Positions 50,525 through 59,012 of a stretch of DNA of 64,000 nucleotides are shown piece after piece (position 1 is the stretch's first letter; each line of letters starts with the position of its first letter). Location of the stretch: NCBI GenBank assembly GCA_000611775.1, contig KK106985.1:186001-250000 (forward strand), read 5' to 3'. The notes below the pieces were generated by a model. The model did no database searches. It saw nothing but the letters and a program-made list of their open reading frames with translations, and was not told where the DNA came from. Source of the DNA: Umbilicaria muhlenbergii (lineage: Eukaryota > Ascomycota > Lecanoromycetes > Umbilicariales > Umbilicariaceae). Both the position numbers and the translations under genes were made by a program.

Positions 50525-50771
50525 AATGTAGTCTGTTTGATTCCTAACTCCGATAGGATGTGGCACTGGATGAGAGGTTGATGAGGGTGTGAGAAATCTA
50601 AAACGAGCCTTCGTCCGACAGAAAGCCACAGTATGCCTCCTCAGCCTGGTAAGGTTACTTTTGGGGATGCCGTACTAACTGCATTGGGAAAACGGTCGAT
50701 TTTCAATTCACCTTGCTTTGACTACCTTACCTACCTTCCATCCTTAGATGGGCACCTGTCCTTGACTCAAG
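50525..50771. promoter_or_regulatory. Bidirectional promoter, LCL2 and bL27m genes
   Basis: 247 bp separate the two start codons on opposite strands, so both promoters must lie here or overlap the 5' UTRs. No specific box recognised. Confidence 0.55.
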
Positions 50772-51551
50772 ATGATCCTACAACGAACACGAACGCCTAT
50801 GCAGGCTTGTTCGGCCGCTCTCAATGCTCCTTGGAAACCATCGTCCACCATTGAGGGGTGCATCAACGCCCTCATCCGTTTCCAACTGAGCTCCGCCGCT
50901 CCCGTAACTTGCACGCAAGTCCGCCATGCCTCGCACGCATCACAAGGTCGCGCCAACAGAGCCAAACAAGGTCCTGGAAAACGCCTCGGAGCTAAGAAGT
51001 CCGGTGAGGAGTTGGTCGTACCTGGCAACATCATCTTCAAGCAACGAGGCACGCACTGGTTCCCCGGAGACAATTGCGGCATGGGCCGTGACCATACGAT
51101 CTTCGCCTTACAGAAGGGCTACGTGAAGTACTACAAAGATCCAGAGAAGCATCCGAAGAGAAAGTACATAGGGGTGGTGTTCAACAGAGACGATCCGCTA
51201 CCACTACCTCGAAACTCGGCGCGGCGGAGGAGGTTTGGCATGGTCGCTGCAGAGATGAGTACGTTGGCTGGGAATCAGGAGGTGGAGGTGGCGCAAGACA
51301 AGCTGGTGGACGACAATACATTGAAAGATGTACCGAAGGTCCAGCGAAAGGCCGTTCCTGAAAAGGAACCAGCATTGAAGTTGGGATCGGGGTATATGTA
51401 CAGACAGGCGAACTGGCAGATAGGACGGGCGGCCGAGAGAGCCAACATCAAAGTCCGGTCCTACAAGCGGGGTGATCGATGGTTGGCGTGGCGAAAGGTC
51501 CAAGCGAGGAAAGGGAAGAATGCAGAAAGGAGAGGGATGAGGAGGAAGTAA
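50772..51551 (+). CDS. MRP7: Mitochondrial ribosomal protein bL27m (Mrp7)
   Basis: Large-subunit mitoribosomal protein near the peptidyl-transferase centre. Single exon, 259 residues (ATG 50802 is an alternative). The N-terminal 50 residues are a presequence. The bL27 core is [60 protein letters not shown]. The conserved fungal C-terminal extension has [18 protein letters not shown] and ends very basic (RRGMRRK). Length matches fungal Mrp7, which is far longer than bacterial L27. Confidence 0.95.
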
Positions 51552-52232
51552 GATGGCGGTCAGATGTTGGTCGTTCTTGTCCATGTATTATCTGGAGACT
51601 GCCAGAGGCTGCGGCTCTCATTTTCAATCCGTACATACAAAAGGTGGAGGCAGACTTCCTGACACCTGCTCCATATTGAGTCCAGCAATTAGAGGGTCTT
51701 ACGTTTGCAGAGAATCCTACGCTAGGAGTCTTTACTGTGGTTGTAACGGTTCCTCTCACTCGGCCAAATCCGAGTCGGCACTGACGTTGCAGTGATGTTG
51801 CATTCACTTGGACGAACCTCACCGACATGTTCATTCACATCACCACTCGAGTCTACACGCTTGTTTCTTCTGTTTCGCCATATTCTCGGCTAACAGACAA
51901 GCCTCTTTTCCTCCAATTGATCTTATCATCCCCGATACTAAAGTATCTCCCCTTATATTATTGCTTCCGAGAAGGCAGTGCTATCTACATAATTCACTAC
52001 CTTTCCTTCTCGAGCTTCTGGCTCGCAGCTCAGCCGCACTTGAACATTTACCACTTGAATACTCTCTTCTGCTCTAATCACATCTACTTGCAGTCGATTT
52101 CTAGGGAAGCGGCATGTTTACTCGCTCGTAAAGCTCACCTCACACTCAAGTATCCTATCTTATTTTCTGTATCTGCATAGACGTCGATCACCTTCGGCAA
52201 ACGTCTGGAAAACGTCACCACAACTCTTCTCT
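51552..52232. other. Intergenic, bL27m to BTB gene
   Basis: No gene. Sequence from about 51830 is T/C-rich and likely includes the BTB gene promoter and 5' leader. Confidence 0.5.
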
Positions 52233-53610
52233 GTGTCAGCTTTAGAGTCTGCTTTAGAGCCTTCCGTATCCTTCAACATGTCTCCGCCAAAGCCGAAGAA
52301 TGGGAAAACGGTGGGTACTTGGGATGAGATAATGGATCCAAACGGTGACATCACCCTCGTGGTTGGGGAGGATCAGCGCAAGCTTCGAGTTGCCAGGAAC
52401 ATTCTTTGTCTTGGTTCACCTGTGTTTGCGAAGATGTTGGCTCCAGGATCCCATTTCATGGAAGCCCAAGCTACCAATCTCTCCGACGACGGTACCAAGC
52501 ACATCAGACTAGTCGAAGACGAGCTCCAACCATTGACCTTGGTACTGAGGATCATGCATCATTGCACGAAAGACGTGCCAGCGGAGCTCTCACTGGACCT
52601 GCTAACAAAAGTGGCAACCCTTTGCGACAAATACGATCTGCTTGGTTGCATACGTCAATGGACGACGTCATGGTGCGGTAGTCCAATGGCAAAGGAAGAC
52701 AGGAGATGGTTGTTGATAGGCTTTGTGTTCGAAAATACCCAAGCTTTTCGGGAAATTACCAAGTCTCTCATACTGAACGACCGGACAAGCGACTGGGAGA
52801 CGTTCGATATTGTTACCAACCTCGATGGAGTCCCAGAATGGGTTATGGGTGAGAGATAGAGCCTTTCAATCTCTGCGTATAAGCTAATGGCGCACCGCAG
52901 AACAAATGCGAGCGTGTCGCGAGGACACTCTCCGAAAGCTGGTGGGAGTCATCACGAAGCTCGCGAAGAGGTTGATGGCCCGTGCTTCCAATTCGCTCAT
53001 CATCTGTCGAGTCATAGACGATACCTCGTTGAAACGCCAAGTCTGCGATGCGGCTACTCTGGGTGATCTCGCAAGATATTACCCGAGGGAAACATTCTCA
53101 GGTTACAACATTGTAAACGTGCCGTACGATCACGTTGCAGAATCTGTTACCATTTACGTGCAAAGACTGAAGGACGCCCGATGTACTGGCAAGCAGATCA
53201 CCTTCGCAGACAAAAAGAGCACTCGTTCTCATTCTATGTGCCAGCCAAGCATAAGGCTACTCCCGGAAATGCTCGAGATCATTGAACGCGTCAAGGGACT
53301 GTCCCTAGACCCTCCGTTCCAGATAATCGTCCAAAAGCTGGCCGGCAATACGATTACAATCCAGTCTTTCGATTCGGACACCATCTGGATGATCAAGACC
53401 AAGATTCGGATGCAAACAAACATATCTAACAACAAACAGAGGCTAATTCACCGCGGAAAGCAGCTTGAGAATGATCACACCCTCCAGTATTACAAGATTG
53501 CAAAAGATGCCACCGTGGATCTAGTTGTGCGGCTAGCCGGGTGCGAGTGTGAGTATGGTGAGCACGAAGTCTGGGAGCAGTCAGCGTATGAACAACAGGG
53601 GGGTGCGTGA
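52233..53610 (+). CDS. BTB-domain protein with C-terminal ubiquitin-like domain
   Basis: Exons 52233-52848 and 52901-53610 (GTGAGA...CCGCAG) give 441 residues. Residues about 33-130 form a BTB/POZ fold (PNGDITLVVGEDQRKLRVA, LCLGSPVFAKMLAPGSHF). The middle is helical with no motif I know. Residues about 345-420 align without gaps to ubiquitin: FQIIVQKLAGNTITIQSF, DTIWMIKTKI, KQRLIHRGKQLENDHTL and TVDLVVRLAGC. Kept ubiquitin features: Leu8, Leu43-Ile44, Lys27, Lys29, Lys48, Lys63, Val70 and Arg72-Leu73; Lys6, Lys11 and Lys33 are changed. The end is Gly75-Cys rather than Gly-Gly, with 21 more residues, so it is not expected to be processed or conjugated. BTB proteins are often Cul3 adaptors; a built-in ubiquitin fold suggests a regulatory role in that system, by inference. 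Two nearby ATGs (52233, 52278). Confidence 0.85.
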
Positions 53611-54387: not shown

Positions 54388-57300
54388 CTACTCCTCCTCC
54401 ATCAACCTCCCCAAAATCAAACTCTGAATGACGAACTGATCCCCCACAACCCTCACCTTCCCACTCCCACTCCCACCCCTAGCCTCCACACCCACCTCCC
54501 CCTTCCCCCTCTTCCTTTTCCTCCCCACTCCAGTCCCCACCTCCCCGCCACCCAGCACCCTCTCAGCCCCCTCCTCGCTCCCTCCAACATAGACCCAATC
54601 CCAGCCCTCCCCTTTACCCTCCACCTCGCCCAACATCCTCTTCGCCGCCTCCAAACTCCCCGCCGTAGCGACCCTCCTAGCCCCAAGCGCGTGCGTCAAG
54701 AAGAGGTAAGCTTTTCTTTTCTCTTCGCCCATAACGAGCAACACGCTGCGGCCACTGAGCCACTGCGGGCGACTCTCGATAATAGTAGCCAAGCGGGCGG
54801 AAGCTGGTGCGTAAGACGGCAAGAGGCGGGACCTGACCGCGCCGTTCAAAAACGCCGATTCGCCCGAAGGAAGCAAGTACGGCTCCCAGGGTAAGAGATG
54901 CTGCTTAGCGACGCAGTCATGAACCCAGCGAGTAGCGAGACAAGGGATACCAAGGGCGAGAGCCTGGATGTATTTAGTTTTGCGGCCGTGCCTATCGGCG
55001 ATGAGGCAGGTGAAGCCGAGGTTTGCGGCTTGCGGGGTGAGGCGGAAGGATGATGGGTGGATGTGGGGGTGGGGGCTGCGTTTGGAGGAGGGGGAGGAGG
55101 TAGTGGGGTCGAAGTCGGGGATGGTGAAGAGTTCATCGAAGCCGTCGTCGACGAGGTGGCCGCCGTTGGTGAGGATGTGGTCGATGGTTTGTTTGCGGCG
55201 GTCTTCTTGCTCGATTTGACTTACGGCGAAGACGATGTTTTTGAAGAGAGTGGTGCTGGTTCGGGAGGGAGCAACGGAGGTTGTTGAGCTGATTGCTCGG
55301 CTTGACGTCGAGGGTTTGGAGCGACGAGTTCGTGAAGATGGTGTTGTTGGAGGTGATACTGTTTCCGAAGGAGTTTGCAGGCCTGGGAGTAATGACTGCT
55401 GATCTGGGGCATAGGAGTAGAGTCGGTCCTTGAAATTAGTCCACATAGTCTGTGTCAGATAAACGTTCGTAATGCCAACGTCCAAGCGGGCAGGCACAGG
55501 ATCGCGCTGTTTGACCGAGAGCGTCACTGTAGCGTAACCATACTGGTCACCCTTAGGATATTGGACTGATTCGCTGGGGCCGGACTGTCTATTACGACTA
55601 GGTGTCTGAGGATCGTGTAGTGGGTGGTTTTTGTCTTTGAAACCTTCGACGACGTATGTCTTGGTCCGAGCTCCAGGGAGATCGATCTTGACAATGTCTC
55701 CTTTTTGGAGATGTAGTCGCCTCACTCCAAACCTGCTTATGACGCCGATTGTGCCGTCATCGAACCGGATCTTGTATCGTGGCTCTTCTTCCCTTGTAAA
55801 CCCCAGACAAGTAGCAGGGTAGTACGTGCCATTGAAGGCCGCAAACACACGGTTCGGGGCGACCACGTCTTCTTCCACAGCGGCCCCTTCATTTGTTTCT
55901 TCGGGTCGTACCTCTTCGTGAAGGACGTCAGAGCCCAGTTCAATTTTGGCTTTGTCCCGGAGGACCTGAATTCGGCTTCTACGACGTGGATTTTCTTCGA
56001 GCATGGCTGGGGTCGGACTGTCAATGGCATTGTGATTGGCAATGTTTGAAGCCGCTGTTTTCGTAGTTGGCTTCTGAGCCACCAAAGGGCCGCGGGCGCC
56101 GGTCACTGATTGTGGTCGGAGATTTAACGATCTGCGATTCTTGCCGCCTTCTGATAGATGCTGGCGCATAGCAATCTGTCTGGCGGCAACCGCCGCTTGT
56201 CCACCATCATTTTCACGGTCCTGAGTATCCGAAAGCATGGCCGGAGGTAGCTGATTAGATTGTGGCTTGGCCACTTGCAGTACACGTCCGTCACGACCTC
56301 GCCGCCGTTTCTTGGCTGGGCCAATGGGACTGGACCCCTCGATAGCAGCTTGAAATGCCATATCCTCGTTGGTAATGAGCCCGACATCAATATCGATGTC
56401 ACCGATTGCATCAGGTGGTGTAGGGTCACTTGCAATCTCGGTTAATGTTTTGGTACGCCTTAGATAAGGACTGGGAGAAGCCCGTGATGGTTCGGATTGC
56501 TGGCGAGAGACACGAAGGCGTGATTTGGATGGAGAGCCATCCAGGTGCGTTTGGGCCGTTTCAAACACCGTAGACCCTGTTGACTGCTGTTTTGTTGCTG
56601 GTCCGGTGGCGAGTGAGTTCGGAAGAGAGGGTTGGGGTTGCGACGAAGCACGCATAGCATTTGGTACGGAAGCAGAAGATGTCGACCCTCTGATTTGACT
56701 CGAAGACCGACTAGACTCAGGAATGGTGCTCCGTAATGTACCTTCTGCGACATTGGTGGATCTCTTCTTTCGAGCAATATCTGGATGAGCCGCAGATTCA
56801 ATCCTAGCTTCTGGAAGTTCAGCCGTAACTTCCGCCAGTGGGGTCCTTTCCACTGCCTCTTCCGTACGCTGGAGATCCTGGCGCACAGTGTGGTGATGGT
56901 CTAGGTGAGGATTACCCGCCGGACTTGATGTAGTTTCAGGCGTGTCCTCAGGAGGTTGCAATTGAGGTGGGCTACTTCTCAAAGCTGCTTCCGACATGTT
57001 ATTTTGCGGCAATGACGGAGAGCTATCAAGAACGGGACTTGACATGGGCGGCGGTCCAGGAGGAAGGGACGAGCTATCTACTTGCTGTAGCTGACGGGCC
57101 TTCGAAGATTGCAATGGAGTATTTAGGGTAAGCGGAAATGACTGGGACTGAGGTATGATAGCCCTGGTTTCGGAAGAGACCGGTGCTAGGCTTGGTAGTG
57201 GCGCAGAGTTGTGCGTCTGCCAATCTTTCGTGCGAGACTGGGAAGGTTGTGAGTCTGCGATTGCTACAGTCTGAGATCCCCCCGGGTTGATCTCAATCCT

Positions 57301-59012
57301 TTGGTTCGGGTCAGAGCTGCGGTCGCCAGCATCTTCATCATTAGGCTTGGTTAAGTTGCTGTTTACGGCAGGAGACTGGCCTCGATGTCGATTCTTCGAA
57401 GGACTGTCCTGAGTAACAGCTTGGAGAGACAAGCTAGTTGCAATCCTTGATGTTGTCATGGGCACTTGCACACCACCAAGGTCAAAATTCTCTTTGTCTT
57501 CCTCTCCTCTCTCGATAGGAGGCCTGATCTCGGGGGCATCGTCTTCCTCATGCTCAGTTTCGTCTTCCGTGGCATTGCCTTGAATTTCCTCCCCATTTAT
57601 GTCATCCGATATTACAACAGCGTCGTCCATTCTCTTCCCTGATGAACGTGGGGGATGATGACTCTCTGGGCCTTTAACACTGGCCGCTCTACCATACTCT
57701 TTTGAACCTGGTCTTGATGGGGCTGTGATGCCGACAAATTCATCTTTGGCCATGGACTCAATCCTCTTCTGGTTCATACGCCTACGCAGTAGACTCCCCT
57801 GGGATTCGAAATCATCGTCCGACAGCTCTTCTCCCGGTGATCCACGAGTTAACGCAGCTGATTGCTGTAGCATCATTTGTCTTTCCCTTTCATCTTGCGA
57901 AGCCTTCATGGAGATATAGTTCGTTTGTGGTTCAGTCACTGCACGTTGAAAATCTACGTGAGCAATTTTGGCTGGTGATGACAAGGAGTCTGCTGTAGAG
58001 GGCCTCTGCATTGGGAAAAAGCCTGGTGATGGCCGCTCTGACATCGCATCTGATGGCAATCTGTTTACCAATGGCGATGACACTGCCTGCGTAGTCTGGA
58101 AAACTTGGCTAAGATCCATGATGCCTCCAGATAGCCCCATGTGTTCGGCGAAAGGGTTTGCGGGTAATCGAGGGGTTGTGCTATCTGGGCCGATTACCTC
58201 TCCGTCACGACTCCGCTTTCTGCCATGAGTGGCGGGCGTCTTCGGCTGTCTGAAGCGTTTTGACTCAGGGTATGGTTCCGCCCGGATGTCTGTCTGAGAC
58301 GTTTCCCCAAGTTCATCTCCACTGTCACTCACAGGCGCTTCCTCTGAATATTCCAAGGTAGGTTGCTCGAATGCCGCGAGTAAATCGATATGACCTGTGT
58401 TCCCTTGGCTGTAGGTGAATGGAGTCGCCTCATGAGTATGAGTGGTTTCGCCAGCAGGAGCAGGAGCAGGAACAGCAGCTTCGTTTGAGATCTGTTGAGA
58501 CCCATCCTTGGCCAATAGCTTGTCATAGACAGACTGGGAATATGGTTGAGTATCGCCTTCATGTTGACTGCCCAGTATGATCATCTTCGGCCTTGAAGAG
58601 TCAGGTACCGTGCCTGGGGGCTCTGGTTGTGATGCGGGTGGATTCAGACGGACAACATCTGCGCCCAGTGCTTTGTTGACCTGTACTGGTGCATGGACAA
58701 CAGGACGAGATCTTGTGTGGCCAATAACACCCCGCTGCCGAGGACTGGTATCTATGTTAATGCCCTCGATATTGCTTCTTGTACGCGAATATGTTCTCGC
58801 GACTGGCTTAGACAGTTTGTCTTTTGTTGTCGCGTTTAGTGATGGCGACTTCAACGGGGAAAACGTCAGCATGGCTGCATAACCTATCATGCAGGCATTC
58901 ATCACCAGGGTCTGTCTTGGTGGGCACGCTGGGGTTCATCACTTACTTGTCCAATTCCAAGAGCAAATGCTTTGAGCTGTGAGAAGTCAATGCTATCTGT
59001 TTGCGTCCCCAT
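54388..59012 (-). CDS. DNA-damage checkpoint mediator Crb2/Rad9 (53BP1-like)
   Basis: Scaffold that binds methylated and ubiquitinated nucleosomes and recruits the effector kinase at DNA breaks. Exon 1 is short, 59012-58947 (MGTQTDSIDFSQLKAFALGI GQ), and exon 2 is 58848-54388; 1508 residues. The intron has a good donor (GTAAGT), a branch-like TGCTGAC followed by TTTTCCCC, and acceptor AAG at 58849, in phase. The long middle is disordered, with many S/TQ sites (for example SQTVAIADSQPSQS) for ATM/ATR-type kinases. A tandem-Tudor region starts at about 1020 (VFAAFNGTYYPATCLGF ... YKIRFDDGTIGVIS), and two BRCT repeats follow from about 1223 (LFKNIVFAVSQ; GIPCLATRWVHDCVAKQ). The C-terminal basic/Gly tail is G-rich in DNA. 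Without exon 1 the start would fall at 58905 inside the intron. Confidence 0.92.

Follow-up and report, generated by a model that had tools for sequence, protein, structure and literature searches.

A two-exon gene of Umbilicaria muhlenbergii that joins a BTB domain to a ubiquitin fold lacking the terminal Gly-Gly

Gene structure and relatives in other genomes

The window, a stretch of 64,000 nucleotides comprising bases 186001-250000 of contig 5 in the 34.8 Mb, 7-contig genome of the fungus Umbilicaria muhlenbergii, was found to contain a gene encoding an N-terminal BTB domain, a middle region and a C-terminal ubiquitin fold in one spliced frame (Table 1). One neighboring gene encodes a ribosomal L27 domain and is probably that for mitochondrial L27; the other is predicted from its domain matches to encode a Crb2/Rad9-like checkpoint protein.

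Table 1. Coordinates of the fusion gene, its parts and its neighbors in the window.
Feature	Positions	Strand	Details
Neighboring gene, ribosomal L27 domain	50766-51551	+	102.2 bits
Fusion gene, two exons	52278-53610	+	426 residues in the spliced translation
Exon 1	52278-52848	+	residues 1-190 and first base of codon 191; open frame, then consensus GTGAGA donor
BTB/POZ domain	52347-52646	+	residues 24-123; PF00651
Intron	52849-52900	+	phase 1, 52 nt; GTGAGA donor, GCTAATG branch-like stretch, GCAG acceptor
Exon 2	52901-53610	+	stop codon 53608-53610 included; P0006 covers 88% at 56% identity
Middle region	52903-53316	+	residues 192-329; ends in family motif GLSL plus DPP
Ubiquitin fold	53317-53544	+	residues 330-405; begins Phe-Gln-Ile, ends Ala-Gly-Cys; PF00240
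C-terminal extension	53545-53607	+	21 residues (ECEYGEHEVWEQSAYEQQGGA); 9/19 aligned residues the same in P0006
Neighboring gene, Crb2 Tudor domain	54388-58935	-	1515 residues; 61.1 bits plus weak BRCT matches

The preliminary description had begun the gene at 52233, in a frame that is open from 52059. That codon, 45 nt upstream of the ATG at 52278, is GTG, and the start was rejected in favor of the ATG, which agrees with the relatives (P0007 begins at the corresponding methionine). The residue numbers 345-420 given earlier for the ubiquitin part are 15 too high and become 330-405. The ordinary intron proposed at 52849-52900 was borne out in length, phase and quality of splice signals, and the N-terminal BTB assignment was upheld by a modest PF00651 match of 27.3 bits (E 4.2e-06) against the Pfam curated cut-off of 20.5. 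The ubiquitin domain matched PF00240 with 62.5 bits (E 3.2e-17, curated cut-off 25.4), and the Pfam search of the protein gave no match in the middle region. A leader upstream of the ATG (51785-52277) is conserved enough for the gene caller of the relative P0001 to have run one frame through it; the P0001 sequence MFIHITTRVY... corresponds to the window frame opening at 51785; in the window, that frame either differs from the BTB frame or is cut off from it by a stop. A bacterial-type promoter scan, not apt for a fungus, gave scores at the level of shuffled sequence.

A collection of 5.77 billion clustered proteins was searched with three queries. With the whole protein there were 5 matches up to E 0.001 among 4888 candidates, with exon 2 there was 1 match up to E 10 among 118 candidates, and with a three-sequence profile there were at least 14 matches up to E 10 among 7998 candidates scored. 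P0006 (209 residues) matched exon 2 at 56% identity, distributed over the middle region (63/113), the ubiquitin fold (45/76) and the tail (9/19); it contains PF00240 at 48.4 bits (cut-off 25.4) and shares descent and the tail pattern GC.C..GE.EVWE.S with the window protein. P0007 (199 residues) was 77% identical to exon 1 and continues beyond the splice site, as expected of a protein predicted by an intron-blind gene caller. P0007 is probably the BTB half that belongs with P0006, the shared contig being deduced from the equal figure of 27,807 bases with which each is listed, one contig each. Thus, a second fungus appears, judging from these sequences, to carry the same BTB and ubiquitin pair, and the fusion is for that reason probably real and working. 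The earlier proposal to look for the combined architecture among homologues was answered in part, as an apparent second species was found in which the halves are listed as separate proteins. An artefact of assembly or gene prediction was rejected because that species has the parts too.

Other matches to exon 1 were P0001 at 80% identity and P0008, P0009 and P0010 at 52-58%. No ubiquitin tail or exon 2 was seen for these four in the exon 2 and profile searches, which is weak evidence either way, as exon 2 evolves faster and the search relies on 5-residue words that both sequences have in common. Among the 14 matches listed, P0006 alone represents the ubiquitin tail in the BTB family. PF00651 scored above cut-off in P0001, P0003, P0007 and P0009 and just below it in P0008 and P0010; the Pfam search of relatives gave no match to it in P0002 and P0014. 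P0011-P0013 have ubiquitin domains and no BTB among their listed Pfam domains, and P0011 and P0012, both metagenomic, have numerous tandem units of degenerate ubiquitin, some of which differ greatly from ubiquitin. In a tree of exon 1, P0007 was outermost among six close relatives, a branching by which their common ancestor would already have had the ubiquitin tail; with inner-node support of 0.093 and 0.913 no conclusion was drawn.

The BTB family and the exon junction

A search of the genome with exon 1 identified four paralogues (L012-L015) at 29-32% identity (E 1.2e-12 to 2.7e-10), all on contig 1 at 4.521-4.641 Mb, within about 120 kb. When compared over exon 1, the paralogues and the proteins from Paecilomyces were 24-33% identical to the window gene. 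Each paralogue has a second exon comprising a middle region, a C-terminal segment GLCLxC or ICLDC and then a Cys tail, and the window middle region aligns with that of the paralogues and with their GLCL end. A phase-1 splice at the matching place was the best-consensus option in L013 (GTGAGT...TACTAG) and L015 (GTGAGC...TTCTAG); in L012 and L014 such a splice was available alongside competing sites. The four paralogues extend both the BTB family and its intron site, indicating that exon 2 belongs to the BTB gene. Since the paralogues share the beginning of exon 2, that beginning is a normal part of the family, and the ubiquitin fold was added downstream of GLSL, at the point that the Cys tail occupies in the paralogues. 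The paralogues have no ubiquitin, and a tail of the C..G...C type stands where the window gene has it. The four also share a GLWP/GVYP motif together with the C-terminal Cys tail (GLCLxC...G.C), which may be able to hold metal, a guess from the spacing of the cysteines.

The relatives P0003-P0005 from Paecilomyces variotii end a few residues past GLSL (GLSLYPLSG) with neither ubiquitin nor a Cys tail. They are like the paralogues and the window gene in having the BTB domain, the middle region and a C-terminal GL(C/S)L, to which the paralogues add the phase-1 intron site; both groups differ from the window gene in how they end, and in neither is a ubiquitin fold present. The middle region of P0003-P0005 includes an additional CxxC...CxxC stretch that is absent from the window protein, and in P0003 this stretch gave weak zinc-ribbon-like matches under cut-off. 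A comparison by eye of 16 ubiquitin and 27 BTB matches in the genome found no BTB-ubiquitin pair within 5 kb besides the window gene; the 27 are a lower bound, L012-L015 not being among them.

It is very improbable that the locus holds two separate genes or transcripts side by side. Sequence collections and gene callers do list the halves of the relatives apart, as P0006 and P0007, a split that is expected from an intron-blind caller. The window gene has good intron signals and paralogues with the same exon break, exon 2 starts inside the family middle region, and the ubiquitin part opens with Phe where ubiquitin has Met, and so lacks its own start codon there.

By sequence, the BTB half matched no solved BTB structure in the PDB up to E 10. 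A second PDB sequence search with this half gave nothing significant, the best row being a kinetochore protein at E 0.055 and the Keap1 BTB appearing only at E 0.16. The structure model of the BTB half had a mean pLDDT of 48.9 and is of low confidence. Among the best 50 of its 242 fold matches in the PDB, the best were mainly the Cul3 adaptors SPOP, KBTBD4, KEAP1 and KLHL proteins. TM-scores relative to the query were about 0.3, and no match had E 0.001 or better. Further down the same 50 were apparent chains of elongin C, which is not a Cul3 adaptor.

Origin and constraint of the ubiquitin part

Residues 330-405 aligned with human ubiquitin without a gap and were identical at 36 of 76 positions. 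The alignment over about 76 residues, the presence of Ile44, Lys48 and Lys63 and the Gly-Cys end followed by 21 residues are all as first described for the window sequence. In the PDB, 326 distinct ubiquitin-chain sequences were matched up to E 0.001, and a ubiquitin fold is assigned to this segment from its sequence. Structure prediction for exon 2 from a two-sequence alignment gave an unusable model (mean pLDDT 30.7). The NCBIfam search returned only a Rad23 match far under cut-off (29 versus 207 bits) and one chance match.

When the genome was searched with exon 2, it matched itself and 8 further times in three ubiquitin-encoding loci, with nothing else up to E 10. The ubiquitin part is identical to the ubiquitin of the genome at 36/76 sites and to human NEDD8 at 25/76, and an origin from NEDD8 was rejected on these counts. 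An origin from a shuttle factor or Ubp6 was rejected because none of these matched exon 2 up to E 10; genes resembling those for Rad23, Dsk2, Ddi1 and Ubp6 are present in the genome. By these comparisons the source of the fused copy was ubiquitin itself, not NEDD8 or the domain of a shuttle factor.

Compared with ubiquitin, the window protein and P0006 have 29 sites kept in common and 16 identical changes (M1F, L15I, E16Q, V17S, E18F, D24W, N25M, Q31R, D52N, G53D, S57Q, N60K, Q62A, S65A, R74A and G76C); a further 7 changes occur in the window protein alone, 7 occur in P0006 alone and 17 sites changed differently. The shared changes, R74A and G76C among them, indicate that ubiquitin had been captured and locked at Gly76 before the two species diverged. 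Residues kept in both proteins include Leu8, Arg42, Val70, Arg72, Lys27, Lys29 and Lys63. Site 44 is Ile in the window protein and Val in P0006, P0006 has Met at 48 and Glu at 47 in place of Lys48 and Gly47, and His68 is changed in both, to Asp and Arg. Consequently, the stress that the preliminary description laid on Ile44, Lys48 and Lys63 holds for the window protein, whereas only Lys63 is identical in P0006.

The conservation of classes of sites was compared using lists of core, Ile44-face and lysine sites. Fold-core sites were kept at 13/19 positions versus 16/57 elsewhere (p 0.0023), a preference which indicates that the fold is under constraint. Sites of the Ile44 face were kept at 5/9 versus 11/48 for other surface sites, a trend that is not significant (p 0.060), and lysines were kept at 3/7, not more than other sites (p 0.54).

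Ubiquitin is one of the slowest-changing proteins. The difference of the fused copy from the ubiquitin of the genome at 40 of 76 sites, in a protein otherwise nearly frozen, could therefore be read as drift of a functionless accident. The 24 sites of its own in each species (7 + 17) and the faster divergence of exon 2 than of the BTB exon (56% versus 77% identity) are in line with drift. On the other hand, the frame is open in two species with the ubiquitin part 59% identical (45/76), core sites are preferentially kept and the tail retains its common pattern, and an accident of this kind is quite improbable. That the locus is one fused, expressed-type gene under constraint is held with high confidence.

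Ubiquitylation of CRL adaptors by the complexes to which they belong is common. The fused domain might be a turnover signal, a built-in proximal ubiquitin that accepts chains and shortens the life of the adaptor or directs it to the proteasome, and the retention of Lys27, Lys29 and Lys63 in both species would suit such a role. Since lysines as a class are not kept above other sites and P0006 has Met in place of Lys48, through which proteasomal chains are usually linked, the probability given to a turnover signal is low.

Proposed function and relation to known systems

The Gly-Gly at the end of the fold is absent from both species, each having Gly75-Cys76 followed by 21 residues, and on this ground the fused ubiquitin is predicted not to be conjugatable in the usual way. 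With a ubiquitin fold that lies inside a longer protein without Gly-Gly release, the window protein is of the kind of the non-conjugated ubiquitin-domain proteins. The changes Gly76 to Cys and Arg74 to Ala, with 21 residues after them, indicate that the domain is no modifier, should resist release by deubiquitinases and is permanent. The domain is likely to serve permanently in interactions and to be neither a modifier nor debris.

The genome encodes Cul3, as all five PDB sequences matched by L063 up to 1e-100 are cullin-3. It also encodes a cullin-1-like and a cullin-4-like protein (L062 and L064) and a fourth, partial match (L067). In the accessible part of the source, Cul3-BTB complexes are reported in S. 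pombe and the cullins of Pezizomycotina fall into Cul1, Cul3 and Cul4 groups (PMC2785787), a division that the set found here fits. BTB domains frequently serve to dock machinery for the destruction of proteins. Docking of Cul3 by the BTB half is plausible, and we infer from it a scheme with the following steps. By analogy with other BTB adaptors, the BTB part would assemble with Cul3, dimerize or do both, and the middle region would add specificity. The fixed ubiquitin fold would present the face formed by Leu8, residue 44 and Val70 to ubiquitin receptors, and the adaptor complex would thereby be coupled to a ubiquitin reader, such as a proteasome shuttle, a Cdc48 cofactor or a deubiquitinase, with no earlier ubiquitylation. 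The action in cis at a Cul3 complex that the preliminary description suggested is likewise a conjecture. The whole chain, in which a Cul3-type adaptor of the BTB family carries a permanent ubiquitin fold as a surface for a reader in trans, is put forward tentatively, at slightly less than an even chance.

The chief rival to a reader in trans is that the ubiquitin fold serves as an internal structural element that packs on the BTB domain or the middle region in cis and replaces the lost Cys tail. The fusion point lies exactly at the GLSL/GLCL segment of the family, where the paralogues go on into their C..G...C tails, core sites are kept while Lys48, Gly47 and His68 of the binding face vary, and chains resembling elongin C occur among the best 50 of the 242 fold matches of the BTB model. 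Elongin B, which has a ubiquitin fold, packs on elongin C, which has a BTB-like fold. A ubiquitin-fold protein seated on a BTB-like fold has a precedent in VHL-elongin C-elongin B, cited in the available portion of a survey of beta-grasp folds (PMC1949818). Packing in cis would leave the retention of Leu8, Arg42, Val70, Arg72 and a branched aliphatic residue at 44 to be accounted for, as these are surface-exposed in ubiquitin. Furthermore, P0003-P0005 have neither Cys tail nor ubiquitin, so that loss of the tail needs no replacement, and metal binding by the paralogues is deduced from Cys spacing. Such a structural role is considered rather unlikely.

A more speculative version of the adaptor, to which little probability is assigned, is that it is born primed, its own permanent ubiquitin mimicking the first attached ubiquitin and skipping a rate-limiting first transfer. 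Lys63-type chains may then be begun on the adaptor itself, or a ready ubiquitin signal may be shown to a reader. The change of Gly76 to Cys and the conserved Cys-containing tail may act as a lock against removal by deubiquitinases.

Literature searches, judged by titles and the starts of abstracts with subscription journals thinly covered, found no description of a BTB-ubiquitin fusion, in keeping with the statement of the preliminary description that none was known. The principle of a cullin-ligase adaptor with a ubiquitin-like domain has a precedent. FBXO7 is an F-box protein with its own non-conjugated ubiquitin-like domain that binds partners such as Parkin and PINK1, according to the accessible part of the report (PMC3814724). 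Like FBXO7, the window protein has a built-in ubiquitin fold and is probably of the cullin-ligase substrate-adaptor type; FBXO7 differs in using an F-box and Cul1 rather than BTB, in having the ubiquitin-like domain at the N-terminus and in its unrelated sequence outside the ubiquitin fold. If the Cul3 reading is true, the window protein would stand to BTB adaptors as FBXO7 does to F-box proteins, and would show that no ubiquitylation step is needed to connect a cullin adaptor with a ubiquitin reader.

The genome has a polyubiquitin gene and a ubiquitin-ribosomal protein gene. The window gene resembles ubiquitin-fusion precursors (polyubiquitin, ubiquitin-eS31 and ubiquitin-eL40) in that ubiquitin is fused in one frame with another protein. 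However, in the precursors ubiquitin is N-terminal or in tandem, intact and cleaved after Gly-Gly, whereas here it is C-terminal, 47% identical and ends in Gly-Cys followed by 21 residues. Rad23, Dsk2, Ddi1 and Ubp6 likewise have a permanent, non-conjugated ubiquitin fold, which they use for binding, but in these proteins the domain is N-terminal and much less ubiquitin-like. The captured copy, locked by the change of Gly76 to Cys, has changed at more than half of its sites with the core kept, and so offers a natural test of which features a ubiquitin fold requires once its sole task is to be a binding surface.

Elongin B and elongin C are two separate proteins of Cul2 and Cul5 ligases, and elongin B is far less ubiquitin-like than the domain of the window gene. 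The pair, cited in the accessible part of the beta-grasp survey (PMC1949818), is similar to the window gene in combining a ubiquitin fold with a BTB-like fold, in its case within a cullin ligase. No BTB-ubiquitin fusion was seen in that part of the survey, in which POZ is considered a possible offshoot of the beta-grasp fold and emphasis is put on the occurrence of folds used for binding in multi-domain proteins (PMC1949818).
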